Shown one piece after another: positions 229-13,723 of a stretch of DNA of 64,000 nucleotides. Each line of letters begins with the position of its first letter. Position 1 is the stretch's first letter. The DNA comes from Ferruginibacter sp. Its GTDB lineage: Bacteria > Bacteroidota > Bacteroidia > Chitinophagales > Chitinophagaceae. The stretch spans positions 248,001-312,000 of the forward strand of contig JAEUVU010000007.1 in NCBI GenBank assembly GCA_016786725.1, read 5' to 3'. The position numbers were made by a program, and so were the translations under genes. A model generated the notes under the pieces. The model made no database searches. It saw only the letters and a list, made by a program, of their open reading frames with translations, and was not told the origin of the DNA.

Positions 229-843
229 GTGAATAAAAGTAATGAAGAAGAAAATATAAAGCTGGATGCTGAATACTGGAGCAACCGCTACGATGATGGT
301 ACAGCAAGCTGGGATCTGGGCCAAGTATCCCCGCCTGTAAAAAATTATATTGATCAGCTTACAGATAAAAATATAAGGATACTGATACCCGGCTGCGGCA
401 ATACTTATGAAGCTGACTATCTTTTAAAACTTGGGTTTACCAATGTTACAGTAATTGATATTGCCCCTGCTTTGGTAGCACAGTTAAATGAAAAATACCA
501 GGGCAACCAAAATATCAAAATTATCCTCGGCGATTTTTTTGAACACAATGGAGAATATGATTTGATTCTTGAGCAAACATTTTTCTGCGCCCTCGACCCG
601 GCTTTGCGGGAAAGCTATGTTGCCAAAATGCATGAGCTGCTTGCACCAGGCGGTAAACTGGCCGGCGTTTTATTCAACAGGGGTTTTGAAGAACAGGGCC
701 CGCCCTTTGGGGGCGATGAAAACCAGTACAGAACATTGTTTGGCAAATATTTTACTTTTAAAACATTCAACCCCTGTTACAATTCTTTCCCCAAAAGAAA
801 AGATACCGAACTGTTTATCATCCTGGTTAAACAACCAGTTTAA
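229..843 (+). CDS. TPMT-like SAM-dependent methyltransferase
   Basis: The product is 204 residues. It opens with EYWSNRYDDGTASWDLG, the usual N-terminal signature of the thiopurine S-methyltransferase (TPMT) superfamily, followed by the SAM-binding motif I IPGCGNTYEADYL near residue 53 and an acidic motif II (VTVIDIAP). The family methylates sulfur, selenium or related nucleophiles; the substrate here is unknown. The only in-frame start near the N-terminus is GTG 229, 11 bp after the upstream permease, so the pair looks like an operon. A terminator hairpin follows at 853. The neighbouring sulfur-handling genes suggest a thiol or sulfide-related role, which is an inference. Confidence 0.8.
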   Translation: MNKSNEEENIKLDAEYWSNRYDDGTASWDLGQVSPPVKNYIDQLTDKNIRILIPGCGNTYEADYLLKLGFTNVTVIDIAPALVAQLNEKYQGNQNIKIILGDFFEHNGEYDLILEQTFFCALDPALRESYVAKMHELLAPGGKLAGVLFNRGFEEQGPPFGGDENQYRTLFGKYFTFKTFNPCYNSFPKRKDTELFIILVKQPV

Positions 844-914: not shown

Positions 915-958
915 GTAACAATAGTAGCAGGAAAATATTTTTTCTTATCAGAATTTTG
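915..958 (+). promoter_or_regulatory. Promoter P1 with Crp/Fnr-type site, upstream of the MBL-rhodanese gene
   Basis: GTAAC-AATA-GTAGC at 915-928 (centre 921.5) is followed by a -7-like element GAATTTTG at 951-958, one mismatch from TAnnTTTG. The distance from the site centre to the last G of the -7 element is 36.5 bp, identical to P2, P3 and P4. The right half-site is degenerate (GTAGC instead of GTnAC), so alone it would be weak; the shared geometry supports it. Confidence 0.5.
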
Positions 959-996
959 TAAAACTTTATTTACAATCATCTTAAAAGAAAGGAATT

Positions 997-2412
997 ATGA
1001 AAGTTGAACAGATTTATACAGGCTGTATAGCACACGCAGCCTATTATGTTGAGAATAACGGAGAAGCAGCAATCTTTGATCCGCTGCGTGAAGTGCAGCC
1101 TTATATTGACCGTGCGGCAAAAGACAATGCCGTTATCAAATACGTTTTTCTCACACACTTCCACGCCGATTTTGTGAGCGGCCATTTAGACCTTGCCAAA
1201 AAAACAGGGGCAAAAATTGTGTATGGTCCTACAGCCAAACCGGCCTACGAAGCCATTATTGCCGAAGACAACCAGGTTTTTAAAGTGGGTGGGTATGGTG
1301 TTAAAATCATACACACTCCTGGTCATACCATGGAGAGCACCACTTTTATGTTAATTGACGAACAGGGTAAAGAGCATGGCATTATATCGGGCGATACATT
1401 GTTTATTGGTGATGTGGGAAGGCCCGACCTTGCGCAGCATGTAATTGCCGATCTAACCGAAGAAAAACTGGCGGGGCATCTTTATGATTCTCTCCGAAAC
1501 AAAATAATGCCGCTGAGCGATGACCTGATCGTTTACCCCAATCACGGAGCCGGCAGCGCCTGTGGTAAAAACATGAGTAAGGAAACCACCGACACCCTGG
1601 GCCACCAGAAACAGGTGAATTATGCATTGAACCCTGCATTGAGTAAGGAAGAATTTATAAAAGCCATCTTAACCGGCTTAACACCACCGCCGGGTTATTT
1701 CCCAAAAAATGTGTTGATGAATATTCAGGGATACGAAAGCCTGGATACTGTTTTAGAAAGAGGGCATAAAGCATTAACAGCAACAGATTTTGAAATAATG
1801 GCCAATGAAACAAATGCACTGGTACTTGATACCAGGAATGCAACCGATTTTGCAGCGGGCTTTATTCCCAACAGTGTTAACATCGGGTTAGATGGAAATT
1901 TTGCACAATGGGTGGGCGAAATGATACCGGATATCAAACAGGAAATACTGTTGGTATGCAATCCCGGTTACGAAGACGAAGCCATGATACGGTTATCGAG
2001 GGTTGGTTATGATGGCACCATCGGATACCTGGACGGCGGCTTTGAGAGCTGGGTAAAAGCGGGTAAAGAAATGGATACTGTTAAAAGAATTACTGCAGCA
2101 GCCTTTGAGGAAAAGTATGCAAATGAAAAGCCATTGACAATTGATATCAGGAAGAAAAGCGAATTTGATTCGCAGCACCTTACCGGTGCTGTGAACATAC
2201 CTTTAAATGAGATCAATAATCATCTGGCGGAATTCCCTAAAGACAAACCTTTTATCCTGCATTGTGCCGGCGGCTACCGCAGTATGATTGCAGCTTCTAT
2301 GTTAAAACAAAGAGGCTGGGATAATTTCTCTGATGTGATTGGCGGGTTTACTGAGATAGCAAAAACCAATGTGCCTAAGTCGGAGTATGTTTGCCCTGCT
2401 ACGATGTTGTAG
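997..2412 (+). CDS. MBL-fold hydrolase fused to two rhodanese domains (persulfide dioxygenase-like)
   Basis: The product is 471 residues and cytoplasmic. Residues 1-250 are a metallo-beta-lactamase fold: H54-x-H56-x-D58, H110 in HTPGH, SGDTLFIGD at 131-139 and H183 in PNHGAGS. Phe59 stands where the His of the usual HxHxDH motif would be, which fits the single-iron ETHE1/persulfide dioxygenase branch better than a two-zinc enzyme. Two rhodanese domains follow, both with a catalytic-type Cys: C321 (CNPGYE) and C423 (CAGGYRS). Such fusions oxidise or transfer sulfane sulfur from low-molecular-weight persulfides. The ATG has a GAAAGGA-like ribosome site. The gene has its own promoter (P1) and a terminator, so it is probably monocistronic. 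Confidence 0.9.
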   Translation: MKVEQIYTGCIAHAAYYVENNGEAAIFDPLREVQPYIDRAAKDNAVIKYVFLTHFHADFVSGHLDLAKKTGAKIVYGPTAKPAYEAIIAEDNQVFKVGGYGVKIIHTPGHTMESTTFMLIDEQGKEHGIISGDTLFIGDVGRPDLAQHVIADLTEEKLAGHLYDSLRNKIMPLSDDLIVYPNHGAGSACGKNMSKETTDTLGHQKQVNYALNPALSKEEFIKAILTGLTPPPGYFPKNVLMNIQGYESLDTVLERGHKALTATDFEIMANETNALVLDTRNATDFAAGFIPNSVNIGLDGNFAQWVGEMIPDIKQEILLVCNPGYEDEAMIRLSRVGYDGTIGYLDGGFESWVKAGKEMDTVKRITAAAFEEKYANEKPLTIDIRKKSEFDSQHLTGAVNIPLNEINNHLAEFPKDKPFILHCAGGYRSMIAASMLKQRGWDNFSDVIGGFTEIAKTNVPKSEYVCPATML

Positions 2413-2437
2413 ATGTTTTTTGTTTACAATAAATGCG

Positions 2438-2462
2438 GCCCCGGAAGTTTCCGGGGCTTTTT
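2438..2462 (+). terminator. Rho-independent terminator after the MBL-rhodanese gene
   Basis: GCCCCGGA (2438-2445) pairs perfectly with TCCGGGGC (2450-2457) across an AGTT loop, and five T follow. It lies 25 bp after the stop codon. Confidence 0.9.
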
Positions 2463-2518
2463 GCTGACAACCGGCATGATGATCTATGATATCAATCAGC
2501 ACAAACACAGTATTGAAA

Positions 2519-2562
2519 GTAACATTAGTCACCAAGCAGCTGCATAGCTGTTTCTACTTTTG
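2519..2562 (+). promoter_or_regulatory. Promoter P2 with Crp/Fnr-type site, upstream of the OsmC/SQR/TusE/DsrE operon
   Basis: GTAAC-ATTA-GTCAC at 2519-2532 (centre 2525.5) precedes a perfect -7 element TACTTTTG at 2555-2562. The centre-to-G distance is 36.5 bp. In Crp/Fnr terms the site is AGTAA-N6-TCACC. Transcription would start near 2566, about 50 nt before the first ATG. Confidence 0.65.
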
Positions 2563-2618
2563 TTGTACAGAAAACAAGTTATTAAAGCATTTATTTTAAA
2601 CCTTAAAAACTATTTGTT

Positions 2619-2828
2619 ATGAAAAAGAACATGGGAAATGCAGACCGCCTGGTGCGGATTTTACTGGCAGCGCTTTTTGCTGTATTGTACTTTACAAAAA
2701 CCGTAGAAGGAACTTTTGGAATTGTATTACTGGTTTTGGGCGGGGTGTTTTTGCTCACAAGCCTTATAAGTTTTTGCCCGCTCTACCCTTTAATAGGCAT
2801 CAATACATGCCCTGCAAAGAAAAAGTAA
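2619..2828 (+). CDS. DUF2892 (YgaP-type) small inner-membrane protein
   Basis: The product is 69 residues with two membrane helices (about 12-32 and 33-52), an N-terminal KKNMGNADRLVRI amphipathic start and a C-terminal CPLYPLIGINTCPAKKK tail with two Cys. This is the YgaP membrane domain family, often found next to or fused with rhodaneses and thought to handle sulfur species at the membrane. It is the first gene of a five-gene run (2619-5404) with short gaps, reading from promoter P2. A second member lies at 12819. Confidence 0.85.
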   Translation: MKKNMGNADRLVRILLAALFAVLYFTKTVEGTFGIVLLVLGGVFLLTSLISFCPLYPLIGINTCPAKKK

Positions 2829-2862
2829 GCTTCAGCATATTTTGAACAATAAACTAAGTTTT

Positions 2863-3318
2863 ATGGAAAACATACATCATTACGAAGTAAAAGTAAAATG
2901 GGATGCCGACAGAAAAGGCACCATGACTTCTCCTGTTCTGAACAGCAGTATAGAAGTGGCAACGCCACCTGAGTTTCCCAAAGGCATGGCCGGCATCTGG
3001 TCGCCGGAGCATTTGCTGGTGGCAGCCGTTAACAGTTGCCTGATGACGACCTTCCTGGCCATTGCAGAAAATTTCAAATTTGATTTTATACATTTTGAAA
3101 GCAATGCCAACGGCAAACTGGAAAGGGTGGATGGAAAGTATATGATAACCGAGGTGGAATTGAGCCCGGTATTAACCATTGCGCCGGATGCGGATAAAGA
3201 AAAAGCATTACGCATTTTAGAAAAATCAGAAGCTGCATGCCTGATATCCAATTCGGTGAAAGCGGCAATCGTGTTTAAGCCAATGCTTAAAATTGAGGAA
3301 GCGGTGCTTTTTAACTAA
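2863..3318 (+). CDS. OsmC/Ohr-like peroxidase-fold protein
   Basis: The product is 151 residues. It has the OsmC pattern: N-terminal beta strands, WSPEHLLVAAVNSCLMTTFLAIAE with C59 on the core helix, and EAACLISNSVKAAI with C126. These two cysteines are the redox pair used by OsmC/Ohr proteins to reduce organic hydroperoxides; related members act on persulfides. I chose ATG 2863; a TTG 21 bp upstream is also in frame but adds no conserved sequence. Its place between a YgaP-type protein and an SQR-like flavoprotein makes thiol/persulfide metabolism a likely context. Confidence 0.85.
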   Translation: MENIHHYEVKVKWDADRKGTMTSPVLNSSIEVATPPEFPKGMAGIWSPEHLLVAAVNSCLMTTFLAIAENFKFDFIHFESNANGKLERVDGKYMITEVELSPVLTIAPDADKEKALRILEKSEAACLISNSVKAAIVFKPMLKIEEAVLFN

Positions 3319-3329
3319 ATACAACTGTT

Positions 3330-4565
3330 ATGAAAAATATTGTTATACTGGGTGCAGGCACAGCAGGTACTATGATGGCCAATCACCTGCATCACCAGTT
3401 AAAACACCCCGAATGGCAAATAACCATCATTGATGAACGGGAAGAACATCACTACCAGCCTGGCTACCTCTTTCTTCCTTTTGATATTTACAGTCCGGAA
3501 GATATTGTTAAGACGATTGAAGAGTTTATTCCCAAAGATGTTAAACTCATCAAACAACAGATCAACAGGATCGTTCCCACAGAAAATAAAATACAATTAG
3601 CTGATGGATCTGAATTGCCTTATGATATCCTGATCATAGCCACCGGCGCCAAAATTGCTCCTGAAGAAACCGAAGGCATGAAGGGAAGCGAATGGCAAAA
3701 ATCTGTTTTTGATTTTTACACTTTTGAAGGCTCGCTGGCATTGAGGAATAAACTGAGAGAATGGGATGGCGGTAAACTGGTTGTTCACATTACTGAAATG
3801 CCCATCAAATGCCCAGTAGCACCACTTGAATTTGCTTTCCTTGCTGATTCCTTTTTCAAACATAAGCATATGCGTGATAAAGTGGAGATAACTTACGTAA
3901 CTCCTCTGAGCGGCGCTTTTACAAAACCAAAAGCTACTGAAGCCCTTGAACATTTGCTGCACGAAAAAGGAATTCACATAGAACCTGACTTTGCCATTGA
4001 GCGTGTGGATAATGAGAAAAAGGAAATTGTTGATTATGGCGGTAAGGTAATTCCTTTCGATCTGCTGGTAACTGTGCCAACCAACAAAGGCGATGAATTA
4101 ATGGAAAGATCGGGAATGGGGGATGATCTGAATTATGTGCCTACCCACAAAGCAACATTGCAGTCCATCAACTACCAGAATGTTTTTGTGCTGGGCGATG
4201 CAAGCAATATACCAGCATCCAAAGCGGGCTCGGTTGCACATTTTGAAGCAGAGATATTAACTGAAAATATTCTCCGCTATGTGCATGGTGAACCGTTGAA
4301 AGAAGAATTTGACGGGCATGCCAACTGCTTTATTGAAACCGGAAACGGCAAAGCCTTATTGATAGATTTTAATTATACCCACGAACCGGTTGAAGGAAGT
4401 TTTCCCTTCGCAGGTATTGGTCCGCTGCGGCTTTTAAAAGAAAGCAGGATGAACCACATGGGCAAACTTGCTTTCAGGTGGATATACTGGAATGTTTTGC
4501 TGAAAGGAACCCATATCCCTTTTGTATCGGCAACTATGAGTGAAAAAGGAAAACACTATGCATAA
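3330..4565 (+). CDS. SQR-like FAD-dependent oxidoreductase
   Basis: The product is 411 residues. It has an N-terminal dinucleotide fold GAGTAG (8-13), a second motif DILIIATGAKI (99-109) and the FAD-contacting FVLGDASNIPASKAG (286-300). Cys161 (KCPVAPLE) and Cys333 (ANCFIETG) sit where the two catalytic cysteines of sulfide:quinone oxidoreductases lie, whereas type II NADH dehydrogenases lack them. SQR oxidises sulfide at the membrane and passes electrons to quinone, making polysulfide or persulfide. That product would feed the carriers and the persulfide dioxygenase-like enzyme nearby. The exact SQR type is not settled. It sits 11 bp after the OsmC-like gene in the same operon. Confidence 0.85.
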   Translation: MKNIVILGAGTAGTMMANHLHHQLKHPEWQITIIDEREEHHYQPGYLFLPFDIYSPEDIVKTIEEFIPKDVKLIKQQINRIVPTENKIQLADGSELPYDILIIATGAKIAPEETEGMKGSEWQKSVFDFYTFEGSLALRNKLREWDGGKLVVHITEMPIKCPVAPLEFAFLADSFFKHKHMRDKVEITYVTPLSGAFTKPKATEALEHLLHEKGIHIEPDFAIERVDNEKKEIVDYGGKVIPFDLLVTVPTNKGDELMERSGMGDDLNYVPTHKATLQSINYQNVFVLGDASNIPASKAGSVAHFEAEILTENILRYVHGEPLKEEFDGHANCFIETGNGKALLIDFNYTHEPVEGSFPFAGIGPLRLLKESRMNHMGKLAFRWIYWNVLLKGTHIPFVSATMSEKGKHYA

Positions 4566-4592
4566 AATTTTAAATTTTTAAAATAAGGAATC

Positions 4593-4901
4593 ATGGAAAA
4601 GATAATAGCAGGTAAAAACATTACCGTTAATGAAGAAGGGTACTTAACAGATTTTAATCAATGGGATGAAAAAGTTGGTGAAGCCATTGCTGCAGAAGCG
4701 AATGTCCCGCTGAGCCCCAGGCATTGGGAAATATTGAAGTACCTCCAGGATGAACACAAGAACCAGGTGGCGCTCAGTATCAGGCGCATTGGTAAAAGCG
4801 GTGTTACTGATATAAAGGAATTCTACCAGCTATTTCCGGTAGCGCCTTTGAAAACCGCTACAAAAATTGCAGGCATTCCCAAACCAGCAAGCTGTATTTG
4901 A
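4593..4901 (+). CDS. TusE/DsrC-family sulfur carrier
   Basis: The product is 102 residues and fits the TusE/DsrC/DsvC family: DFNQWDEKVGEAIA, SPRHWEILKYLQ, and the C-terminal arm AGIPKPASCI with the penultimate Cys101 that carries a persulfide. The second, upstream cysteine (CysB) typical of true DsrC of sulfite reduction is absent: the residues around 87-92 are KTATKI. This points to sulfur relay rather than dissimilatory sulfite reduction, and no dsrAB is present. The gene is followed by a DsrE-family gene, a frequent pairing of donor and acceptor. Confidence 0.9.
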   Translation: MEKIIAGKNITVNEEGYLTDFNQWDEKVGEAIAAEANVPLSPRHWEILKYLQDEHKNQVALSIRRIGKSGVTDIKEFYQLFPVAPLKTATKIAGIPKPASCI

Positions 4902-4921
4902 TCAATTAAAAACTGTTAGTC

Positions 4922-5404
4922 ATGAGTGAAAATAACGGAGCTATAAAAAAGATGATGATCATCTTATCAAAAGGCACACTTGAAAATGTGTATGCCGCAT
5001 TTGTACTGGCCAACGGAGCCCGTATGGAAGGTATAGATGCTGAAATATTTTTTACTTTCTTCGGCCTGGAGGCTGTTCATAAAAAGAAACTGGAACACCT
5101 GCACGTGGCCACAGTTGGCAATCCTGCGATGCACGTGCCAACCATGCTGGGAGGCTTACCCGGTGTGGAAGCCCTGGCAAGCAGCATGATGAAAAAGGAA
5201 ATGGAAAAAATAGATATGCCGGATGTGCATGAATTTCTGGATATTATGACAGCATCCGGGGTTAAACTCTGGGCATGTAAACTGGCCATGGATATGTTCC
5301 ATTACAAAAAGGAAGACCTGTATGAAGGAGTAAATGATGTAATTACTGTAGGTGATTTTTATAAACAGAGCCAGGGAAATGGTGTACACATGTTGTTTGT
5401 GTAA
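4922..5404 (+). CDS. DsrE2-like sulfurtransferase subunit
   Basis: The product is 160 residues of the DsrE/DsrF/DsrH-like superfamily. It starts with MMIILSKGTLENVYAAFVLANGA, then FFTFFGL, a central region rich in Met, and GVKLWACKLAMDMF, where Cys119, the only cysteine I see, is the expected persulfide-carrying residue. DsrE2-type proteins move sulfane sulfur between rhodaneses and TusA/TusE-type carriers. It lies 20 bp after the TusE-like gene and closes the operon that starts at 2619; the next gene has its own promoter (P3). Confidence 0.85.
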   Translation: MSENNGAIKKMMIILSKGTLENVYAAFVLANGARMEGIDAEIFFTFFGLEAVHKKKLEHLHVATVGNPAMHVPTMLGGLPGVEALASSMMKKEMEKIDMPDVHEFLDIMTASGVKLWACKLAMDMFHYKKEDLYEGVNDVITVGDFYKQSQGNGVHMLFV

Positions 5405-5445
5405 GCAAACTTTCTTCAGGTAATAATCAAACACCGTTTTTGTAT

Positions 5446-5489
5446 GTAACCTTTGTTACCCAAACGAAGCAGCGGTACATTTACATTTG
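5446..5489 (+). promoter_or_regulatory. Promoter P3 with Crp/Fnr-type site, upstream of the thioredoxin/rhodanese operon
   Basis: GTAAC-CTTT-GTTAC at 5446-5459 is a perfect inverted repeat (centre 5452.5). A perfect -7 element TACATTTG lies at 5482-5489, again 36.5 bp from centre to last G. The predicted start near 5493 leaves a leader of about 12 nt before ATG 5505. Confidence 0.7.
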
Positions 5490-5504
5490 CAATATAAAAT
5501 AAGG

Positions 5505-5744
5505 ATGATGAAGAAAATGATATTCACCAACTGGACATTTATGAGGTTCCTGCGCCTTGGTATGGGAATTGCAATTATAGTTCAGGCCTTTATGGTAAAA
5601 GATATGTTGTTTGGATTTTTGGGTTTACTGTTAACAGCAATGCCGGTTTTTAATATTGGTTGCTGCGGTACACAGGGCTGTTATATGCCTCCTGCAAAAG
5701 AAAAGAAATCTGAAGATGAAATTATTTATGAAGAAGTGGTTTAA
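5505..5744 (+). CDS. Small membrane protein, YgaP-related
   Basis: The product is about 79 residues from ATG 5505, which follows AATAAGG. It has two hydrophobic helices (LRLGMGIAIIVQAFMV and MLFGFLGLLLTAMPVFNI), then GCCGTQGCY with three cysteines and a charged tail. It resembles DUF2892-type proteins with a cysteine-rich end. It is the first gene of a tight operon (5505-6576), and its 3' end overlaps the next coding sequence. Membrane-bound handling of sulfur or metal is plausible; no activity is proven by sequence. Confidence 0.75.
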   Translation: MMKKMIFTNWTFMRFLRLGMGIAIIVQAFMVKDMLFGFLGLLLTAMPVFNIGCCGTQGCYMPPAKEKKSEDEIIYEEVV

Positions 5745-5964
5745 TAATAACAGGTTGTATGTTATTGGTGCAGTTGCAGGGGCAATCGCCGGGTATATTT
5801 ACTGGCAACAAATTGGCTGCTCATCCGGTAGCTGTATGATTACTTCCCGGCCAGTAAACAGTACCCTTTATGGCGCTTTAATGGGAGCATTGCTCTTCGG
5901 AATGTTTAAAAAGCAGAACAGAAAAGAAGTTATAAAACAAGGAGAAAACAAAGATGACATTTAA
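5728..5964 (+). CDS. DUF6132 family small membrane protein
   Basis: The product is 78 residues from ATG 5728 (MKKWFNNNRLYVIGAVAGAIAGY); another in-frame ATG is at 5716. It has a first helix, then YWQQIGCSSGSCMITSRPVNSTLYGALMGALLFG with a CxxxxC pair and a second helix. This matches the Bacteroidota family DUF6132, whose function is unknown. It overlaps the previous gene by 17 bp and the thioredoxin gene by 11 bp, so translation is likely coupled. The paired Cys next to thioredoxin hints at a redox or sulfur-transfer partner, as an inference. Confidence 0.75.
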   Translation: MKKWFNNNRLYVIGAVAGAIAGYIYWQQIGCSSGSCMITSRPVNSTLYGALMGALLFGMFKKQNRKEVIKQGENKDDI

Positions 5965-6250
5965 CGAGATCATAAACTCAGATAAACCGGTACTGGTTGA
6001 TTTTTCTGCAGAATGGTGCGGCCCCTGCAAAATGATGGCGCCCATACTTAAGGATGTAAAAAAGGAATTGGGCGATGCTGTGACCATTATCAAAGTGGAT
6101 GTTGACCAAAGCCCGCAGGCAGCACAGGCCTATCAGGTGCAGGGTGTACCCACGCTGATAATTTTTAAAAATAGAAAACCGCTGTGGCGGCAAAGCGGTG
6201 TAGTATCCAAAGCCGGACTGGTTGATGTTCTTAAAAAATTCACAATCTAA
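5954..6250 (+). CDS. Thioredoxin
   Basis: The product is 98 residues with the classic active site W21-C22-G23-P24-C25-K, the structural cis-proline motif GVPTLI and no signal peptide, so it is a cytosolic dithiol reductase. It starts inside the 3' end of the DUF6132 gene and is followed after 11 bp by a rhodanese. In this setting it would reduce persulfides formed on the rhodanese, DsrE or TusE proteins. It is probably not the housekeeping thioredoxin. Confidence 0.92.
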   Translation: MTFNEIINSDKPVLVDFSAEWCGPCKMMAPILKDVKKELGDAVTIIKVDVDQSPQAAQAYQVQGVPTLIIFKNRKPLWRQSGVVSKAGLVDVLKKFTI

Positions 6251-6261
6251 ATAGCAAAGCA

Positions 6262-6576
6262 ATGAGTTTATTTCAAAAATTATTTGGCGGAGGTACGCCT
6301 GCTGTTGATCTTAAAGCAATTATTGATGAAGGCGCTTTTTTGGTTGATGTTAGAACGCCGGGAGAATTTAATTCGGGCCACGTAAAAGGTTCGGTAAATA
6401 TCCCGGTTGACAGCATTCCCAACCAGCTCAACAAGTTCAAAAACAAAAAGAATATTGTAGTGTTCTGCCGCAGCGGCATGCGCAGCGGCCAGGCAAAAAA
6501 TATTTTGCAGCAAAACGGGTTCACCAATGTTATAAACGGAGGTACCTGGGATAAAGTGCAAAGTTACGTGTCGTAA
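6262..6576 (+). CDS. Single-domain rhodanese sulfurtransferase
   Basis: The product is 104 residues, one rhodanese domain: LVDVRTPGEFNSGHVKGSVNIPV and the active loop C69-R-S-G-M-R-S, the six-residue loop form expected for sulfurtransferases. It lacks a signal peptide. It ends the operon 5505-6576 and is followed by a strong terminator. It likely exchanges sulfane sulfur with the DsrE/TusE carriers encoded upstream and is recycled by the adjacent thioredoxin. Confidence 0.9.
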   Translation: MSLFQKLFGGGTPAVDLKAIIDEGAFLVDVRTPGEFNSGHVKGSVNIPVDSIPNQLNKFKNKKNIVVFCRSGMRSGQAKNILQQNGFTNVINGGTWDKVQSYVS

Positions 6577-6599
6577 AGAAGCTGTTTTCTTTTTCATAG

Positions 6600-6634
6600 C
6601 TGAACATCTTTAAGGAGGTGTTCAGTTTTTTTTT
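6600..6634 (+). terminator. Rho-independent terminator after the rhodanese gene
   Basis: CTGAACA (6600-6606) pairs with TGTTCAG (6619-6625). The stem extends inward by T-G, C-G, T-A and T-G pairs to a four-base loop. Nine T follow. Confidence 0.88.
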
Positions 6635-6668
6635 GCAAAATTTTTTCAGGAAAAATGAAATACCATAA

Positions 6669-6712
6669 GTTACAAATGTTACCGTACCCAAATTTTCCGG
6701 CTTTTAGTTTTG
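6669..6712 (+). promoter_or_regulatory. Promoter P4 with Crp/Fnr-type site, upstream of the first RND efflux operon
   Basis: GTTAC-AAAT-GTTAC at 6669-6682 (centre 6675.5) lies 36.5 bp upstream of the last G of a perfect -7 element TAGTTTTG (6705-6712). The start would be near 6716, about 13 nt before ATG 6729. No -33 TTTG is visible; the site covers that region, as expected of an activator-dependent promoter. Confidence 0.65.
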
Positions 6713-6728
6713 CGTCAAATAAAATTTG

Positions 6729-8072
6729 ATGACAACTAAAAGTATACTTCTGCCCGGAATTTTTATCACGGCAGTTTTGTTTTTATCAACAGCAACTGCA
6801 TCTGCGCAGCAAACCACAAAGCACCTGGGCCTGGATGAAGCCTTAGCCGCAACACTGAAAAATAATAAGGCTGTGGAACTGGCCATGCTGGATGAAAAGA
6901 TAGCAGCAGCCAGTTACAAAGAAACCGAAGCCATCTTTTTTCCGCAGGTTGGCCTTTCTTACTCAGCCCTTGGTACCAACAACCCGTTGAATGCTTTTGG
7001 TTTCAAACTGCAGCAAAAATCAATTGCACAAAACGATTTTGATCCTGCAAAACTTAATGATCCATCAGCAACTTCTGATTTTACAACCAAACTGGAACTG
7101 CAGCAGCCAATCATCAATTTTGATATGCAATACAAAAGAAAAGCGGCTGCAAAGCAGGTTGATTTATACAATTACAAAACGCAGCGAACAAAAGAATACC
7201 TGGAGCTGGAAGTGAATAAAGCTTACCTGCAACTACAGCTTGCCTATGATGCTGCAGATGTGCTGGAAGATGCCAATAAAACAGCAGGGGCGGTTTACAC
7301 ATTTACCAATAACCATTACAAACAGGGTCTTATTCAAAAATCTGATTTGCTGAATGTGCAGTTACGTGTTACCACCATTGAAACAAATATCGCAAAGGCA
7401 AAAAGCAATATTCAAAACGCATCAGATTACCTAAGCCTGCTGATGGGGGTTGATTCTTCGTTAGTTTATACTGTTGACAAAGTACAACCGGAAACTAACG
7501 AGCCTGCTTATTCCGGTAAATTCAATATTCCTCAAAACCGTGCGGACTTTATAGCCATGCAAAGAGCTATTGAAGCTTCAGAGCTGATGATAACGGCAAC
7601 AAAAAAAAGTTACTTACCCAGGCTGAATGCATTTGGCAGCTACCAGTTTAATGATGCCAGTCCGCTGGGATTTGGTGCCAGTGCCTGGATGGCCGGCATA
7701 CAGCTTACCTGGGATATTTTTAAAGGAAACAAAACAAAGAACAGCATCAGCACACAAAAAATACAACGTGATAAACTAATAGAACAACTGGCCCAGCAAA
7801 AAGAACAAAGCCAGCTGGAACTTAACAAAGCATACCATGATCTGTCTGATGCACAGTTTGATGCCCGCCAGCAGAAGGCTGCTATTGAACAGGCCGCTGA
7901 AGCATTACAGATATTGCAAAACCGCTACCAGCAGGGCCTTGTAAACACAACAGATGTGCTGATGGCCGCCACCCAGGTATCGCAACAAAAATTTGCATTG
8001 GCACAGGCTGTATATGCTGCCAATGTTACCAAAGCCTGGATACAATTCTTAACCTCAACAAAAAATAAATAA
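6729..8072 (+). CDS. TolC-family outer-membrane efflux protein (first RND system)
   Basis: The product is 447 residues from ATG 6729 (a TTG one codon earlier is also in frame). It has a signal peptide ending ATASAQQ, then two repeated outer-membrane efflux (OEP) halves rich in long alpha helices, including YKQGLIQKSDLLNVQLRV and the matching YQQGLVNTTDVLMAATQV in the second half. It forms the outer-membrane channel of a tripartite pump, with the adaptor at 8085 and the permease at 9275. It starts the operon driven by promoter P4. Confidence 0.92.
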   Translation: MTTKSILLPGIFITAVLFLSTATASAQQTTKHLGLDEALAATLKNNKAVELAMLDEKIAAASYKETEAIFFPQVGLSYSALGTNNPLNAFGFKLQQKSIAQNDFDPAKLNDPSATSDFTTKLELQQPIINFDMQYKRKAAAKQVDLYNYKTQRTKEYLELEVNKAYLQLQLAYDAADVLEDANKTAGAVYTFTNNHYKQGLIQKSDLLNVQLRVTTIETNIAKAKSNIQNASDYLSLLMGVDSSLVYTVDKVQPETNEPAYSGKFNIPQNRADFIAMQRAIEASELMITATKKSYLPRLNAFGSYQFNDASPLGFGASAWMAGIQLTWDIFKGNKTKNSISTQKIQRDKLIEQLAQQKEQSQLELNKAYHDLSDAQFDARQQKAAIEQAAEALQILQNRYQQGLVNTTDVLMAATQVSQQKFALAQAVYAANVTKAWIQFLTSTKNK

Positions 8073-8084
8073 ACCGCTTACAAT

Positions 8085-9197
8085 ATGCATAAACCTAATT
8101 TTCTTCAACAAACATTTAAGATTACCGCCGGCATCGGGCTGTTGGTTTTATCAGCCTGCTCATCTGGCAATAAAAAAAATGATAAGGCGGCAAACGAAAA
8201 CGCCATTGTTGTAACATTATCGGCACCGGCAGCCAATACAGGCCAGGGCTTAAATATAAGCGGACAGGTAGAAGCATCCCAAACAGCCAACATCAGTACA
8301 CGGGTGATGGGTTATATAACGATGCTTAAAGTTAAAGTGGGAGACCGTGTAAGCAGGGGGCAGCTGCTTGCAACCATCAGCAACCAGGACCTGCTGGCAA
8401 AGCGTGGGCAAACAGATGCCATGATTGCCGAAGCCGAGGCACATGTAAAAAGTGCTAAAAAAGATTTTGACCGCTTTACCGTTTTGTATGGCCAGCAAAG
8501 TGCCACCGCAAAGGAAGTAGATAATGTTACCCTTCAATACAGCGCTGCAAAAGCAAGGCTTGACGGGGCAAGGCAAATGCGCAACGAAATAAATGCACAA
8601 CTGGGTTATACCAGTTTAACAGCGCCTTTCTCAGGCATTGTTACACAAAAGCTGGCTGATGCCGGCAGCATGGCCAACCCCGGAATGCCCATACTTACGA
8701 TTGAGCAAAGCGGCAGTTACCAGGTAAGTGCATCCGTGCCTGAAAATATGATCAGCAGTTTGAAGCAGGGTGCAAATGCAACCATAACCATTGGTGCCAT
8801 TAATAAAACAATACAGGGAACTGTGTCGCAGATCAATGAATCTTCTCAATACACCGGTGGGCAATACATCGTAAAGATCAGCATACCGGATAAAGACAAA
8901 CCCGGTTTATATGCCGGCATGTATGCGAATGTAAATATTCCGGTTGCTGCAGATGCAGTTGTAACAACTGCTGAAAATACAGCCGCAATGGTGCCGCTTC
9001 AAAGCGTGGAAAGACGTGACCAGCTTACAGGCATTTATACGGTAAGCAGTAATAAAACCGCTTTGCTTCGATGGGTGAGGCTGGGTAAGGTTTACGGCAA
9101 CCAGGTAGAAGTGCTTACCGGGCTGGATAAAACCGAGCAGTTTATTGTAAGCGCCGAAGGTAAACTATACAATGGTGCGCCGGTTAAAATAAAGTAA
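8085..9197 (+). CDS. RND efflux periplasmic adaptor lipoprotein (first system)
   Basis: The product is 370 residues. The signal peptide ends in the lipobox LSAC with a lipidated Cys near residue 25. The membrane-fusion-protein order follows: a half-lipoyl motif (VMGYITMLKVKVGDRVSRGQLLATI), a helical hairpin, the second half (LTAPFSGIVTQKLADAGSMANPG), a beta-barrel domain and a membrane-proximal domain. It links the TolC-like channel and the RND permease. It starts 12 bp after the channel gene. The substrate is not determined by sequence. Confidence 0.92.
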   Translation: MHKPNFLQQTFKITAGIGLLVLSACSSGNKKNDKAANENAIVVTLSAPAANTGQGLNISGQVEASQTANISTRVMGYITMLKVKVGDRVSRGQLLATISNQDLLAKRGQTDAMIAEAEAHVKSAKKDFDRFTVLYGQQSATAKEVDNVTLQYSAAKARLDGARQMRNEINAQLGYTSLTAPFSGIVTQKLADAGSMANPGMPILTIEQSGSYQVSASVPENMISSLKQGANATITIGAINKTIQGTVSQINESSQYTGGQYIVKISIPDKDKPGLYAGMYANVNIPVAADAVVTTAENTAAMVPLQSVERRDQLTGIYTVSSNKTALLRWVRLGKVYGNQVEVLTGLDKTEQFIVSAEGKLYNGAPVKIK

Positions 9198-9210: not shown

Positions 9211-9306
9211 ATGATGAATTTATATGGCTGGTATAAAAAGCCACGAATGATTACAAACAAATTAATACAGGCAAATGAAGAACGGACTTTCCGGCAATAT
9301 AGCTAA
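9211..9306 (+). CDS. Possible 31-codon small ORF overlapping the RND permease start
   Basis: ATG ATG at 9211 opens a frame of 31 codons ending at TAA 9304-9306, so it overlaps the first 32 bp of the permease gene in another frame. The encoded peptide is basic and polar (it contains NLYGWYKKPR). It would fill an otherwise unusual 77-bp gap in a tight operon and could couple translation of the permease. No family is recognised and it may be chance. Confidence 0.2.
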   Translation: MMNLYGWYKKPRMITNKLIQANEERTFRQYS

Positions 9307-12300
9307 AGCATTTCTGCAGTCGAAATTAACGATACTGCTGATGATTGCTTTTTTACTGATAGGTGGATACAGCACTTATCTTATACCAAGAGAAGAAGAG
9401 CCACAGATAAAGGTGCCGATGGCCGATATTTTTATCGGCTATCCCGGCGCCGATCCAAAAGATGTTGAAACAAAAGTTGCGGCACCCATTGAAAAGATGA
9501 TCTCGAATGTAAAAGGAGTAGAGTATGTGTATTCTACTTCTATGAAGGGGCAGGCAATGATCATTGTACAATTCTATGTAGGCGAGGATATTGAACGGTC
9601 ACTGGTAAAGTTATACAGCGAAGTGATGAAGAATATGGATAAAATGCCGCAGGGTGTTACGCTTCCATTAATAAAAACCAGGGCCATTGATGATGTGCCG
9701 GTATTGGGTTTAACATTGTGGAGCGACAAATATGATGATTATCGCCTGAAGCAGATCGGACAGGTGCTTACCAACGAAATTAAAAAGATACAAAACGTTT
9801 CAGACATTAATATACTGGGTGGCCGGAGCCGTGAAGTAAAAGTATTACTGGATAAAAACAGGATGGCGCAAAACAATGTTGATTTTTTATCCATCGCAAA
9901 ACAGGTGCAGGGAAGTAATATGCAGATGCAAAGCGGAAACCTGTTGCAAAAAGACACAGCTTTTTCTGTACAAACCGGTAACTTTTTAACCACGGCCGAT
10001 GATGTGGCCAACCTCGTGGTTGGTATCAACCAGCAACAACCTGTTTATTTAAAGCAGGTGGCTACTGTTGAAGATGGGCCCGAAACGCCCAATCAATATG
10101 TTGTATTTGGATATGGCCAATCAGATACAGCCAAAGCAAATACTTACCGCTCAAGTTATCCGGCCGTTACCTTATCTGTGGCAAAAAAAAGAGGTGCAGA
10201 TGCCATGAAGCTTTCCGAACTGATATTAGATAAAGTGGAACATCTTAAAAAAGAATTATTGCCCAATGAAGTGCAGCTTACTGTTTCCCGCAATTACGGA
10301 GAAACAGCATCAGATAAAGTATCCGAATTATTATTTCACCTGTTTATTGCCATTATAGTGGTTACCTTATTTGTAATGCTTGCCATGGGCTGGCGTGGAG
10401 GGCTGGTAGTTTTCCTGTCAGTTCCGGTAACTTTTGCATTAACGCTGTTCAGTTATTATTTTATGGACTACACACTGAACAGGATCACACTTTTTGCATT
10501 GGTATTTATAACCGGTATCGTGGTAGATGATTCCATCATCATTGCAGAAAACATGCACCGGCATTTTAAAATGAAGAAGCTGCCTCCGTTGCAGGCGGCT
10601 ATTTATGCCATCAATGAAGTAGGTAATCCAACCATACTGGCAACTTTAACGGTTGTAGCTGCTGTATTGCCTATGGCATTTGTATCTGGTATGATGGGCC
10701 CATATATGAGCCCGATGCCTATCGGTGCATCTATTGCCATGATGCTGTCGCTGGTGGTGGCATTAACGCTTACGCCTTATCTGGGTTATATCTTTCTTCG
10801 TGAAAAAGAAAAAAGGGGAAGCGCTCATAAAGAAAGTAAAGCGCATGTGCTGGAAGAAAGCCGCATTTATAAAATATACAGAAAATCTATTCATCCTTTG
10901 CTGGAAAGCCGCTGGAAACGCTGGGCATTCATCATGAGTATTGTAGTGATACTGCTTGGATCAATGGTGCTGTTCTATACAAAATCAGTTGCCTTAAAAA
11001 TGCTGCCTTTCGATAATAAAAATGAGTTCCAGGTGGTGATTGATATGCCCGAAGGAACAACACTTGAAAAAACGCAGGCTGTTGCAAAAGATATTGCCGA
11101 TTATGTATCACGCCAGCCAATGGTTGAAAACTACCAGGCCTACATAGGTACATCGGCACCCATTAGTTTCAACGGGTTGGTAAGGCATTACGATTTAAGA
11201 AGGGGAGATAACGTGGCTGATATACAGGTGAACCTGGTTGATAAAAGTAAAAGAAGTATCCAAAGCCATGGCATTGCCAAACAAATGCGCCAGCCCATAC
11301 AGGCCATTGCAAAAAAATACAACGCCAATGTAAAGATTGTGGAAGTGCCGCCGGGCCCGCCGGTATTATCAACCCTGGTGGCAGAAATTTATGGACCTGA
11401 TTACAATGAACAGATAAAAATTGCAGAACAGGTAAAGCAACTCTTCAATAAAACGAACGGCGTTGTTGATACTGACTGGATGGTTGAAGCTGATCAGCCG
11501 GAGATTCACATCGAAGTAGATAAAGAGAAGGCAATGCGCCATGGAGTGGCTACCGCACAGATAACTGCCACCATCAATGCTGCTTTATCCGGGATGGCCG
11601 CTGGCAATATTTACCAGCCTGCTTCTTTCAGCCAGACTGTAATAAAGCTGCAGCTAAGTGATGCGGATAAGGCAGGCATTGATGATGTATTGAATTTGAA
11701 TGTTGTTGGGATGCAGGGAAATGCTGTTCCTGTGAGAGACCTGGTAAAAGTGACGAACCAGGTGAAGCAAAAAAATATCTATCGTAAAAATCAGAAGGAA
11801 GTGGTGTATGTGCTGGCCGATATGTCGGGCGAACTGGAAAGCCCTTCCTATGCCATTGCTGATATATCAGACAATTTAAAAAAATTAAAAGTACCCAAAG
11901 GTTATGCTGTTAAAGAAGAGTACACACAGCAGCCGGAAATGGAAGACAATTTTACTTTGAAGTGGGATGGCGAATGGCAGATAACTTTTGAAGTGTTCAG
12001 AGACCTGGGTATTGCTTTTGGCGTGGTCATCCTGCTTATTTATATTTTGATAGTTGGATGGTTCCAGAACTTTACGGTGCCGCTGGTAATGCTTGCCGCT
12101 ATTCCACTATCACTGGTAGGTATCATTTTAGGGCACTGGGTACTGGGCGCTTATTTTACAGCCACCTCCATGATCGGGTTTATTGCGCTGGCAGGGGTGA
12201 TGGTGCGGAACTCGGTACTGCTCATTGATTTTATTAATATCCGCTTAAAAGACGGGGTGCCATTAAAGCAGGCTATTATTGAAGCCGGCGCTGTAAGAAC

Positions 12301-12487
12301 AACACCAATTTTACTGACAGCCGGTGCAGTTGCATTGGGTGCGGTGATCATCCTTTTCGATCCCATTTTCCAGGGCCTGGCCATTTCGTTGATGGGGGGA
12401 ACGATCACTTCCACCTTCCTCACTTTAATTGTAGTACCCCTGCTGTATTTTAAAATGATGAGAAAAAAATATCCCGTAAAAAAGTAA
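9275..12487 (+). CDS. RND-family efflux permease (first system)
   Basis: The product is 1070 residues, a normal length for AcrB/CusA-type transporters. The first helix lies at about 15-35, a large periplasmic loop follows, and TM4 contains the proton-relay pair D418-D419 (GIVVDDSIIIAEN). A second half has the same layout and ends with the last TM bundle near 1060. There is no CusA-type Met triad that I can recognise, so it is probably a HAE-like multidrug or metabolite pump. It is co-transcribed with the channel and adaptor genes and with 12499 and 12819, under the Crp/Fnr-type promoter P4, which suggests that its substrate is linked to sulfur stress. Confidence 0.92.
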   Translation: MKNGLSGNIAKAFLQSKLTILLMIAFLLIGGYSTYLIPREEEPQIKVPMADIFIGYPGADPKDVETKVAAPIEKMISNVKGVEYVYSTSMKGQAMIIVQFYVGEDIERSLVKLYSEVMKNMDKMPQGVTLPLIKTRAIDDVPVLGLTLWSDKYDDYRLKQIGQVLTNEIKKIQNVSDINILGGRSREVKVLLDKNRMAQNNVDFLSIAKQVQGSNMQMQSGNLLQKDTAFSVQTGNFLTTADDVANLVVGINQQQPVYLKQVATVEDGPETPNQYVVFGYGQSDTAKANTYRSSYPAVTLSVAKKRGADAMKLSELILDKVEHLKKELLPNEVQLTVSRNYGETASDKVSELLFHLFIAIIVVTLFVMLAMGWRGGLVVFLSVPVTFALTLFSYYFMDYTLNRITLFALVFITGIVVDDSIIIAENMHRHFKMKKLPPLQAAIYAINEVGNPTILATLTVVAAVLPMAFVSGMMGPYMSPMPIGASIAMMLSLVVALTLTPYLGYIFLREKEKRGSAHKESKAHVLEESRIYKIYRKSIHPLLESRWKRWAFIMSIVVILLGSMVLFYTKSVALKMLPFDNKNEFQVVIDMPEGTTLEKTQAVAKDIADYVSRQPMVENYQAYIGTSAPISFNGLVRHYDLRRGDNVADIQVNLVDKSKRSIQSHGIAKQMRQPIQAIAKKYNANVKIVEVPPGPPVLSTLVAEIYGPDYNEQIKIAEQVKQLFNKTNGVVDTDWMVEADQPEIHIEVDKEKAMRHGVATAQITATINAALSGMAAGNIYQPASFSQTVIKLQLSDADKAGIDDVLNLNVVGMQGNAVPVRDLVKVTNQVKQKNIYRKNQKEVVYVLADMSGELESPSYAIADISDNLKKLKVPKGYAVKEEYTQQPEMEDNFTLKWDGEWQITFEVFRDLGIAFGVVILLIYILIVGWFQNFTVPLVMLAAIPLSLVGIILGHWVLGAYFTATSMIGFIALAGVMVRNSVLLIDFINIRLKDGVPLKQAIIEAGAVRTTPILLTAGAVALGAVIILFDPIFQGLAISLMGGTITSTFLTLIVVPLLYFKMMRKKYPVKK

Positions 12488-12498
12488 ATTTTTATGCA

Positions 12499-12807
12499 AT
12501 GAAATTATTGATCGTAACATTTCTTAAAGACTACCAGGAGGATGTACAAAAAATATTCAAACAGGCACAGATCACTGCTTTTAGTATTGCAGATGTTACC
12601 GGTTTTAAAGACGGGCAGGCTCCTGACCTGCTGGAGGACTGGTTTGCCAGCGGCGATGAAAAATTTGATTCGCAGGTAATCTTTAGTTTTACCGAAAACC
12701 AAAAAGCTGAACTCGCCCTTGAACTGGCGAACAATTATAATACACAAAACGAAACTAAGTTTCCCGTAAGGGCTTTTATTGTGCCCGTAGAAAAATCTAA
12801 TCTTTAA
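12499..12807 (+). CDS. Small protein of the efflux operon, possibly PII/ferredoxin-like fold
   Basis: The product is 102 residues and soluble. It begins MKLLIVTFLKDYQEDVQKIFKQA and continues with alternating strands and helices (FDSQVIFSFT, then AELALELANNYN, then PVRAFIVPVE), a pattern like the PII/DUF3240 ferredoxin-like proteins that accompany some RND pumps. No motif fixes a function. It starts 11 bp after the permease and is followed 11 bp later by a DUF2892 gene, so it belongs to the same operon. A cytosolic sensor or modulator of the pump is an inference. Confidence 0.6.
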   Translation: MKLLIVTFLKDYQEDVQKIFKQAQITAFSIADVTGFKDGQAPDLLEDWFASGDEKFDSQVIFSFTENQKAELALELANNYNTQNETKFPVRAFIVPVEKSNL

Positions 12808-13090: not shown

Positions 13091-13723
13091 ATGGATTTAG
13101 AAAAACTGGCACAGGTATTTGAACCCGCTTTGATTGAAGAGATACAGCAGTGTGGCACTTTGCAGCATTTTAAAGAAGGCGATCTCATCATGGATTATGG
13201 TAAATACATCCGCATGATGCCGGTGATCCTGAACGGTACCGTAAAAGTTTTTCGCAAGGATGATGATGGCAATGAGATACTGTTGTATTATTTGTCCAGC
13301 AACGAAAGCTGCTCCATGGCATATAGCTGTTGCATTGAAGCAAAAAAAAGCGAGGTAAAAGCTATTGCTGAAGATGATGTGGAACTGATCGGCATACCTC
13401 ACGCCAAGCTGGATGAATGGCTTTGCAAATATCCCAGCTGGAAAAACTACATCATGCGGAGTTTCAACGAACGTTTTATTGAGTTGCTGAAATCAATTGA
13501 AAGTATAGCTTTTCATAAACTTGATGACAGGCTCATTGAGTACCTGAAAGAAAAACAACGTATCACCGGCTCAAGCGTTGTTAAAGCATCACATAGTTTG
13601 ATAGCTGATGAACTGGCTACCTCAAGGGTGGTAATTTCAAGATTGCTGAAGCAACTGGAGAACAGCAAAAAAATAATCCTTTACCGCAATGAAATAAAGC
13701 TGCTTCCGGCTTTAGACCAATAG
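13091..13723 (+). CDS. Crp/Fnr-family transcriptional regulator
   Basis: The product is 210 residues. An N-terminal cyclic-nucleotide-like beta-barrel (about 20-115) is followed by the long dimer helix and a winged helix with recognition helix ATSRVVISRLLKQLEN (about 176-191). It has Cys at 21, 74, 80, 81 and 112. The C74/C80/C81 cluster lies in the loop region that binds cAMP in CRP and could sense redox, metals or persulfide. It is not an FNR-type N-terminal iron-sulfur cluster. It lies 86 bp after the efflux operon and is the best candidate to bind the GTAAC-N4-GTnAC sites at P1-P4. No clear site precedes the gene itself. Confidence 0.9.
   Translation: MDLEKLAQVFEPALIEEIQQCGTLQHFKEGDLIMDYGKYIRMMPVILNGTVKVFRKDDDGNEILLYYLSSNESCSMAYSCCIEAKKSEVKAIAEDDVELIGIPHAKLDEWLCKYPSWKNYIMRSFNERFIELLKSIESIAFHKLDDRLIEYLKEKQRITGSSVVKASHSLIADELATSRVVISRLLKQLENSKKIILYRNEIKLLPALDQ

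Follow-up and report, generated by a model that had tools for sequence, protein, structure and literature searches.

A Crp/Fnr-type site at a fixed distance from the -7 box in sulfur and efflux promoters of Ferruginibacter

A stretch of 64,000 nucleotides from the genome of a Ferruginibacter species (contig JAEUVU010000007.1, positions 248,001 to 312,000; the window in what follows) contains four promoters, P1 to P4, in which a Crp/Fnr-type site lies at one and the same distance from a TAnnTTTG box. They precede a gene for an MBL-fold rhodanese protein, an operon with OsmC, sulfide:quinone oxidoreductase (SQR), TusE and DsrE genes, a thioredoxin/rhodanese operon and an RND efflux operon. Based on the sites and their constant spacing from the box, on the finding of such sites ahead of sulfur genes in relatives, on a further promoter of a DsbD operon and on the covariation of the site with residue 181 of a regulator, all of which were observed, we infer with a probability of roughly 0.7 that these are class II sites at about -41.5 which are bound by the Crp/Fnr-family protein encoded at 13091..13723 (+). 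This protein would activate a single regulon for reactive-sulfur detoxification and efflux, and its cysteines would likely sense persulfide or polysulfide.

Geometry of site and box

Direct reading and a rescan placed the site GTAACAATAGTAGC at 915..928 and its box GAATTTTG at 951..958 (P1), GTAACATTAGTCAC at 2519..2532 and TACTTTTG at 2555..2562 (P2), GTAACCTTTGTTAC at 5446..5459 and TACATTTG at 5482..5489 (P3), and GTTACAAATGTTAC at 6669..6682 and TAGTTTTG at 6705..6712 (P4), all on the plus strand. The distance from the centre of the site to the last G of the box is 36.5 bp in all four, identical to the base, as a first-pass annotation of this sequence had claimed. The elements were scored on 14 fixed letters, eight in the GTnAC-N4-GTnAC-type site and six in the TAnnTTTG box. 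P2, P3 and P4 are perfect, as had been described; P1, to which a single mismatch had been ascribed, departs twice, in its right half-site (GTAGC) and in its box (5/6 letters), and scores 12/14.

Among the 38 strand-places in the window with at least 7/8 site letters, P1 to P4 alone have at least 5/6 box letters at this offset, the remaining ones never having more than 3/6, and no other place in the window reaches 12/14. First-order Markov resampling of the window (n=60) gave on average 0.47 matches of at least 12/14 and 0.017 of at least 13, compared with four observed matches, three of them perfect. No perfect pair of site and box arose in the 60 resamplings, in agreement with the earlier judgement that the arrangement is not expected by chance. 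The observation is thus confirmed, and the finding is stronger than had been stated.

The genome (3.87 Mb) was scanned for exact GTWAC-N4-GTWAC and GTWAC-N4-GTSAC, imperfect sites like that of P1 being scanned within the window. The first pattern occurs at 36 places (72 strand-places). A perfect TAnnTTTG stands at the offset in three of the 72 (P3, P4 and a promoter on contig 26), against one in 5,760 tests when 80 other offsets were tried; allowing 5/6 box letters gives 4/72 and 42/5,760 (P 0.002). The many random matches of the same geometry which had been named as the outcome that would speak against a shared regulator were therefore not seen. The second pattern occurs at eight places, of which P2 alone has a box at the offset. 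The fifth promoter of this geometry (G000 contig 26, L068:2006-4481, minus strand) drives a DsbD-alpha-like gene and a gene for a 648-amino-acid DsbD-like protein with a C-terminal thioredoxin-like part, both named by reading the sequence, which is again a predicted thiol-redox function. In addition, a DUF2202 gene (L007:827-1450, minus strand; PF09968, 162.8 bits) is preceded by GTTACATAAGTTAC (site 1501-1514) with TAATTTTA (5/6) at the 36.5-bp offset.

Eighty loci of relatives, mostly named Chitinophagaceae, Sphingobacteriaceae or unplaced Bacteroidetes, were gathered through orthologues of the 13091 protein with 75-87% identity; the offset, gene and covariation counts from relatives include duplicate and near-identical loci. 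Ferruginibacter paludis and Sediminibacterium salmoneum are among the species with an orthologue. A perfect box at the 36.5-bp offset was found for 69 of the 246 GTNAC-N4-GTNAC strand-places, each of 129 other offsets having at most three, and five control patterns gave no perfect box at the offset in these loci. Between site and box the sequence has diverged to a mean identity of 32% (67 distinct promoters) while the offset is fixed, which indicates that both elements and their distance have been kept and that the remainder has drifted.

At class II promoters, Crp and Fnr bind a site centred near -41.5, which overlaps the -35 region. In Flavobacterium psychrophilum the TAnnTTTG box is placed at -12 to -5 by one report (PMC9723704), which would put the box G at -5 and the centre of the site at -41.5 here and hence suggests class II activation. 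The class II geometry proposed earlier is also favoured by the conserved offset in the 80 loci, the start site being taken from the Flavobacterium psychrophilum box. A comparison of -33 TTG elements (present 17-23 bp ahead of the box in 2/67 site promoters and at 195/1,189 other TAnnTTTG) was set aside because the site itself fills much of that stretch.

When one mismatch in the 14 letters was tolerated, 112 matches were identified in 61 of the 80 loci. A site lies upstream of the gene for a small membrane protein of the P3 type in 40/49 cases, of the TolC gene in 24/27 and of the P2-type YgaP-like gene in 7/16, and upstream of other open reading frames of at least 200 amino acids in 12/638. 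Genes behind sites further include those for CoA-disulfide-reductase-like proteins (five loci; the one tested scored 477 bits, cut-off 578.8), TauE/SafE-like exporters (five loci) and DUF983-like proteins (seven loci), for each of which two groups one 60-residue fragment was checked and fell below the cut-off. TPMT-like methyltransferases and HMA-like proteins (two loci each) and CcoG-, SQR- and DUF2249-like proteins (single loci each) were named from their sequence or from their resemblance to genes of the window.

The regulator and its recognition code

The exact P3 14-mer was found in 7 of the 12 genomes with an orthologue of at least 75% identity to the 13091 protein and in 12 of the 286 others (298 genomes of the order; P 8.6e-7). 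A perfect box stands at the offset at nine of its 20 places, namely 6/8 in orthologue genomes and 3/12 elsewhere; in one orthologue genome the box is off by one base. In G193, a single-contig genome with an 85% orthologue, 5/64 strand-places have at least 5/6 box letters at the offset. Going by a reading of their sequences, the genes behind four of these are OsmC-, TauE-, MBL-rhodanese- and SQR-like, and no recognisable gene follows the fifth. No such place was found among the 60 in G297, a congeneric genome, likewise in one contig, that has no regulator match at E 1e-30 and in which about 0.5 are expected by chance. Sulfur or thiol genes thus lie behind most matches of the blind genome-wide scans in two genomes, as the first-pass annotation had anticipated, and together with the conserved offset this favours the sulfur-plus-efflux regulon which it proposed, with the control as such being predicted.

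Positions 180 and 181 (Crp numbering) have been tied to the half-site by a comparative study, in which HcpR2, with Pro instead of Glu181, is paired with GTAAC rather than with a half-site that ends in GAC (PMC1274295). The 13091 protein has Arg-Val at these positions (its own residues 179/180, helix TSRVVISR), and it is the only one of the four proteins with an HTH_Crp_2 domain found in the genome to do so, as aligned by eye. Among the regulators of the 80 near loci a single one, that of L119, has Glu, and its P3-type promoter reads GTGACCTTTGTCAC versus GTAACCTTTGTTAC in the window. A second set comprised 45 regulators of 40-68% identity, for 25 of which a site was present in the stretch taken; the third base of the half-site is G in 7/8 half-sites at Glu loci versus 2/50 at Val loci. 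When both sets were pooled, G was found in 10/12 Glu half-sites versus 16/250 Val half-sites (P 8.8e-10), or by locus in 5/5 versus 4/81. With all sets combined, including the distant one considered below, the counts are 19/28 and 17/256. On the tree the Val/Glu label requires at least three changes, of which two fall in groups with sites. Six regulators with Ser-Arg-Glu-Ala (L308-L311, L316, L317) have no GTnAC-N4-GTnAC site with box in about 20 kb.

The best link between the 13091 protein and the sites is that the third half-site base covaries with the amino acid at Crp position 181; this connects the regulator family with the sites more closely than neighbourhood alone. The protein had already been named as the obvious candidate; co-occurrence and the recognition helix both point to it as the probable binder.

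Encoded functions and the sensor domain

The genes downstream of P1 to P4 are on the plus strand. P1 is followed by a gene (997..2412) for an MBL-fold protein with two rhodanese stretches (Pfam Lactamase_B, Rhodanese), which is similar to a persulfide dioxygenase and is predicted to act as one. Just upstream of P1 is a TPMT-like methyltransferase gene (PF05724, window 229-843); in loci L101 and L115 a gene of this kind is preceded by a site (box 5/6), a hint that the regulon may also cover methylation of thiols or sulfide. The P2 operon contains the OsmC, SQR, TusE and DsrE genes ascribed to it, and its first gene was overlooked: a YgaP-like membrane protein gene (2619..2828, PF11127) stands ahead of the gene for the OsmC-like protein (2863..3318, PF02566). 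These are followed by genes for SQR (3330..4565, type III like; NF049943, 650 bits, cut-off 525), a TusE/DsrC-like sulfur relay protein (4593..4901; TIGR03342, 82.5 bits, cut-off 53.5) and a DsrE2-like sulfur carrier (4922..5404, PF13686). NF049943 is the NCBIfam exception model for the selenoprotein subtype of type III SQR, and the SQR of the window scores above its cut-off; the gene reads without an internal stop.

The P3 operon encodes a small membrane protein without a Pfam match, YgaP-like by resemblance only (5508..5744), a DUF6132 protein (5728..5964), a thioredoxin (5954..6250, PF00085) and a single-domain rhodanese (6262..6576), which scores below every curated cut-off listed. The P4 operon opens with a TolC-family outer membrane protein (6729..8072, below cut-off), followed by an RND periplasmic adaptor (8085..9197; TIGR01730, 188 bits, cut-off 94.9) and an RND permease (9275..12487; NF033617, 465 bits, below the cut-off of 1250). 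A 102-amino-acid protein (12499..12807) is encoded between the permease and the regulator; it has no Pfam or NCBIfam match, and 26 homologues were found in the 80 loci.

In the proposed mechanism the 13091 protein would bind the sites of the P1 to P4 type and would activate transcription through contact with RNA polymerase, in the manner of Crp and Fnr at promoters of this class. The signal would be sulfane sulfur acting on Cys74, and in this clade also on Cys80, Cys81 and Cys112, at or near the place of the cyclic AMP pocket. SQR would oxidise sulfide, TusE, DsrE and rhodanese would pass the sulfur along, and the MBL-rhodanese protein would oxidise persulfide; thioredoxin, DsbD and OsmC may repair thiols and the RND pump may export a product.

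The 13091 protein has the cyclic-nucleotide-binding-type beta-roll and the Crp-type helix-turn-helix of the Crp/Fnr superfamily, and fold comparison confirmed the Crp fold and nothing further. Its Cys74, Cys80, Cys81 and Cys112 are invariant in 81/81 near homologues and are positioned at or near the lost cyclic AMP pocket. In the regulator of L066, which adjoins P3-type, thioredoxin and DUF6132 genes, Cys74 is the only cysteine of the aligned part. The pocket of cyclic-nucleotide-responsive Crp uses Glu72 and Arg82, opposite which a gapped pairwise alignment places Ala77 and Ser87. FNR has an N-terminal cysteine cluster for [4Fe-4S]; here Cys21 is the sole cysteine before residue 74 and is Phe in 65/81 orthologues.

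Several known regulators share part of these features. The closest solved relative is a Crp/Fnr protein of Eubacterium rectale (PDB 3dv8, E 3.7e-22), which has cysteines aligned with Cys74 and Cys80 but differs in Glu at position 181 and in Ile in place of Cys81. NtcA proteins of cyanobacteria are the second best relatives of solved structure and have Arg-Val at both specificity positions, as does the window protein. The NtcA site is GTA-N8-TAC, and NtcA controls nitrogen, not sulfur, genes; the window protein scores 41.1 bits with TIGR03697, far from the NtcA cut-off of 244.95. The motif predicted for HcpR2, a Crp/Fnr regulator of Bacteroides, Clostridia and Thermotogales, is GTAACnnnnGTTAC according to the comparative data of Rodionov 2005 (PMC1274295), and the sites described here match it. 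HcpR2, however, is reported in that work to have Pro181 and to control hcp under nitrosative stress (PMC1274295), whereas the window protein has Val, its relatives Val or Glu, the genes behind its sites are for sulfur and efflux functions, and cysteines lie at its ligand pocket. No hcp was recognised by eye among the genes downstream of sites in relatives, no family search for hcp having been run.

CstR, SqrR/BigR, PigS and FisR are described as controllers of genes of sulfide oxidation and persulfide removal, for example those for SQR, persulfide dioxygenase and TauE, several of them via cysteine chemistry, but they belong to the CsoR-like, ArsR and sigma-54 activator families; none of the regulators of reactive sulfur species named in the relevant parts of the two sources is a Crp/Fnr protein (PMC9774590, PMC7315123). 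PgRsp and CooA are Crp/Fnr proteins with a sensor-domain cysteine at about the same residue number as Cys74, and differ, in the account of PMC6955866, in being haem proteins which sense redox or carbon monoxide and have other target genes.

Alternatives and significance

Several observations weigh against the proposed regulon. No site stands ahead of the regulator gene itself (0/81 in the window and relatives). MBL-rhodanese genes passed the strict scan in 5/23 cases (7 of the 23 having less than 350 bp upstream), P1 being itself imperfect, and some matches in relatives precede genes with other tasks (DUF983, CcoG, DUF2249). None of the five offset matches of G193 has a perfect box, and its contrast with G297 is weak (5/64 vs 0/60, P 0.06). 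A further comparison concerned 20 genomes of the same genus that lack a close orthologue: before their MBL-rhodanese genes, sites of at least 12/14 were found in 3/7 genomes with a distant homologue vs 1/13 without (P 0.1). The four are G032, G021 and G006 (homologues of 31-41% identity) and G034, which is 65% complete and has no regulator homologue better than E 1.2e-6, yet has the site; G002, G026, G031 and G033 possess a distant homologue and have no site of at least 12/14 before this gene. The contrasts in co-occurrence between single genomes are small. As to the covariation, three of the five Glu loci have their sites before the same OsmC-like gene, so that they are not fully independent, and 20 more distant regulators (29-42% identity) covary more weakly, with G in 9/16 Glu vs 1/6 Val half-sites, or 4/6 vs 1/2 by locus. 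Two genomes of this set, G014 and G022, also hold a near Val regulator; leaving out their three loci, a choice made post hoc, gives G in 7/8 Glu half-sites. Finally, far homologues retain Cys74 alone, which counts against a universal two-cysteine sulfur bridge.

Of the candidate signals, reactive sulfur is the most probable, and its chief competitors are haem and an iron-sulfur cluster. The regulon and regulator could be as proposed with such a group on Cys74 and its neighbours sensing oxygen, nitric oxide or carbon monoxide, and with the sulfur genes following redox; we regard this as unlikely. CooA (1ft9) is among the profile matches (E 1.2e-4), a cluster could be held by the four conserved cysteines, and CcoG- and DUF2249-like genes lie behind sites in single loci. 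Haem ligation in CooA is ascribed to Cys75, His77 and Pro2, and the haem-binding PgRsp of P. gingivalis has Cys76 and Met78, but the PgRsp haem spectra are reported there as unchanged on replacing Cys76, Met78 or His85 (PMC6955866). The targets, moreover, are mostly sulfur and thiol genes, and far homologues with similar targets lose Cys80, Cys81 and Cys112. Persulfide as the signal is suggested by the gene set and the conserved cysteines.

Binding of the sites by a different regulator of this genome, with the 13091 protein as a mere neighbour, is improbable. The genome does encode three further HTH_Crp_2 proteins, one with Arg-Gln at the specificity positions, and the 13091 gene lacks a site of its own; yet all three read otherwise than Arg-Val there, the position-181 residue of the 13091 homologues covaries with the site, and the P3 14-mer tracks 13091 orthologues. 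Duplication of promoters or chance likeness, without regulation, to which the crowding of four promoters inside 6 kb and the weakness of P1 might point, is highly improbable given the absence of perfect pairs in 60 resamplings, an offset fixed across spacers diverged to 32% identity and sites that change along with the regulator.

The architecture of the regulon, with class II Crp/Fnr-type sites, is of a known kind; its gene set, its candidate signal and the visible switch of DNA code are new. Searches of open-licence PMC papers turned up neither a Crp/Fnr regulator of persulfide detoxification nor a regulator of this task in Bacteroidota. Tentatively, a Crp/Fnr lineage of Chitinophagaceae, Sphingobacteriaceae and their kin may have converted the cyclic AMP pocket so that it senses sulfane sulfur through cysteines. 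This lineage would then be the master activator of genes that detoxify sulfide and persulfide, repair thiols and form a dedicated RND pump, its GTAAC/GTGAC code having been switched more than once by Val/Glu at Crp position 181 with the promoters following. The natural Val/Glu swaps offer a ready example of joint change in a regulator and its sites. The presence of an RND pump within the regulon suggests that sulfur products, and not drugs alone, could be its cargo. A defined regulator, a defined site and a regulon of five promoters make the question directly testable, and if sulfur sensing holds true this would be a new kind of sulfur-stress control.

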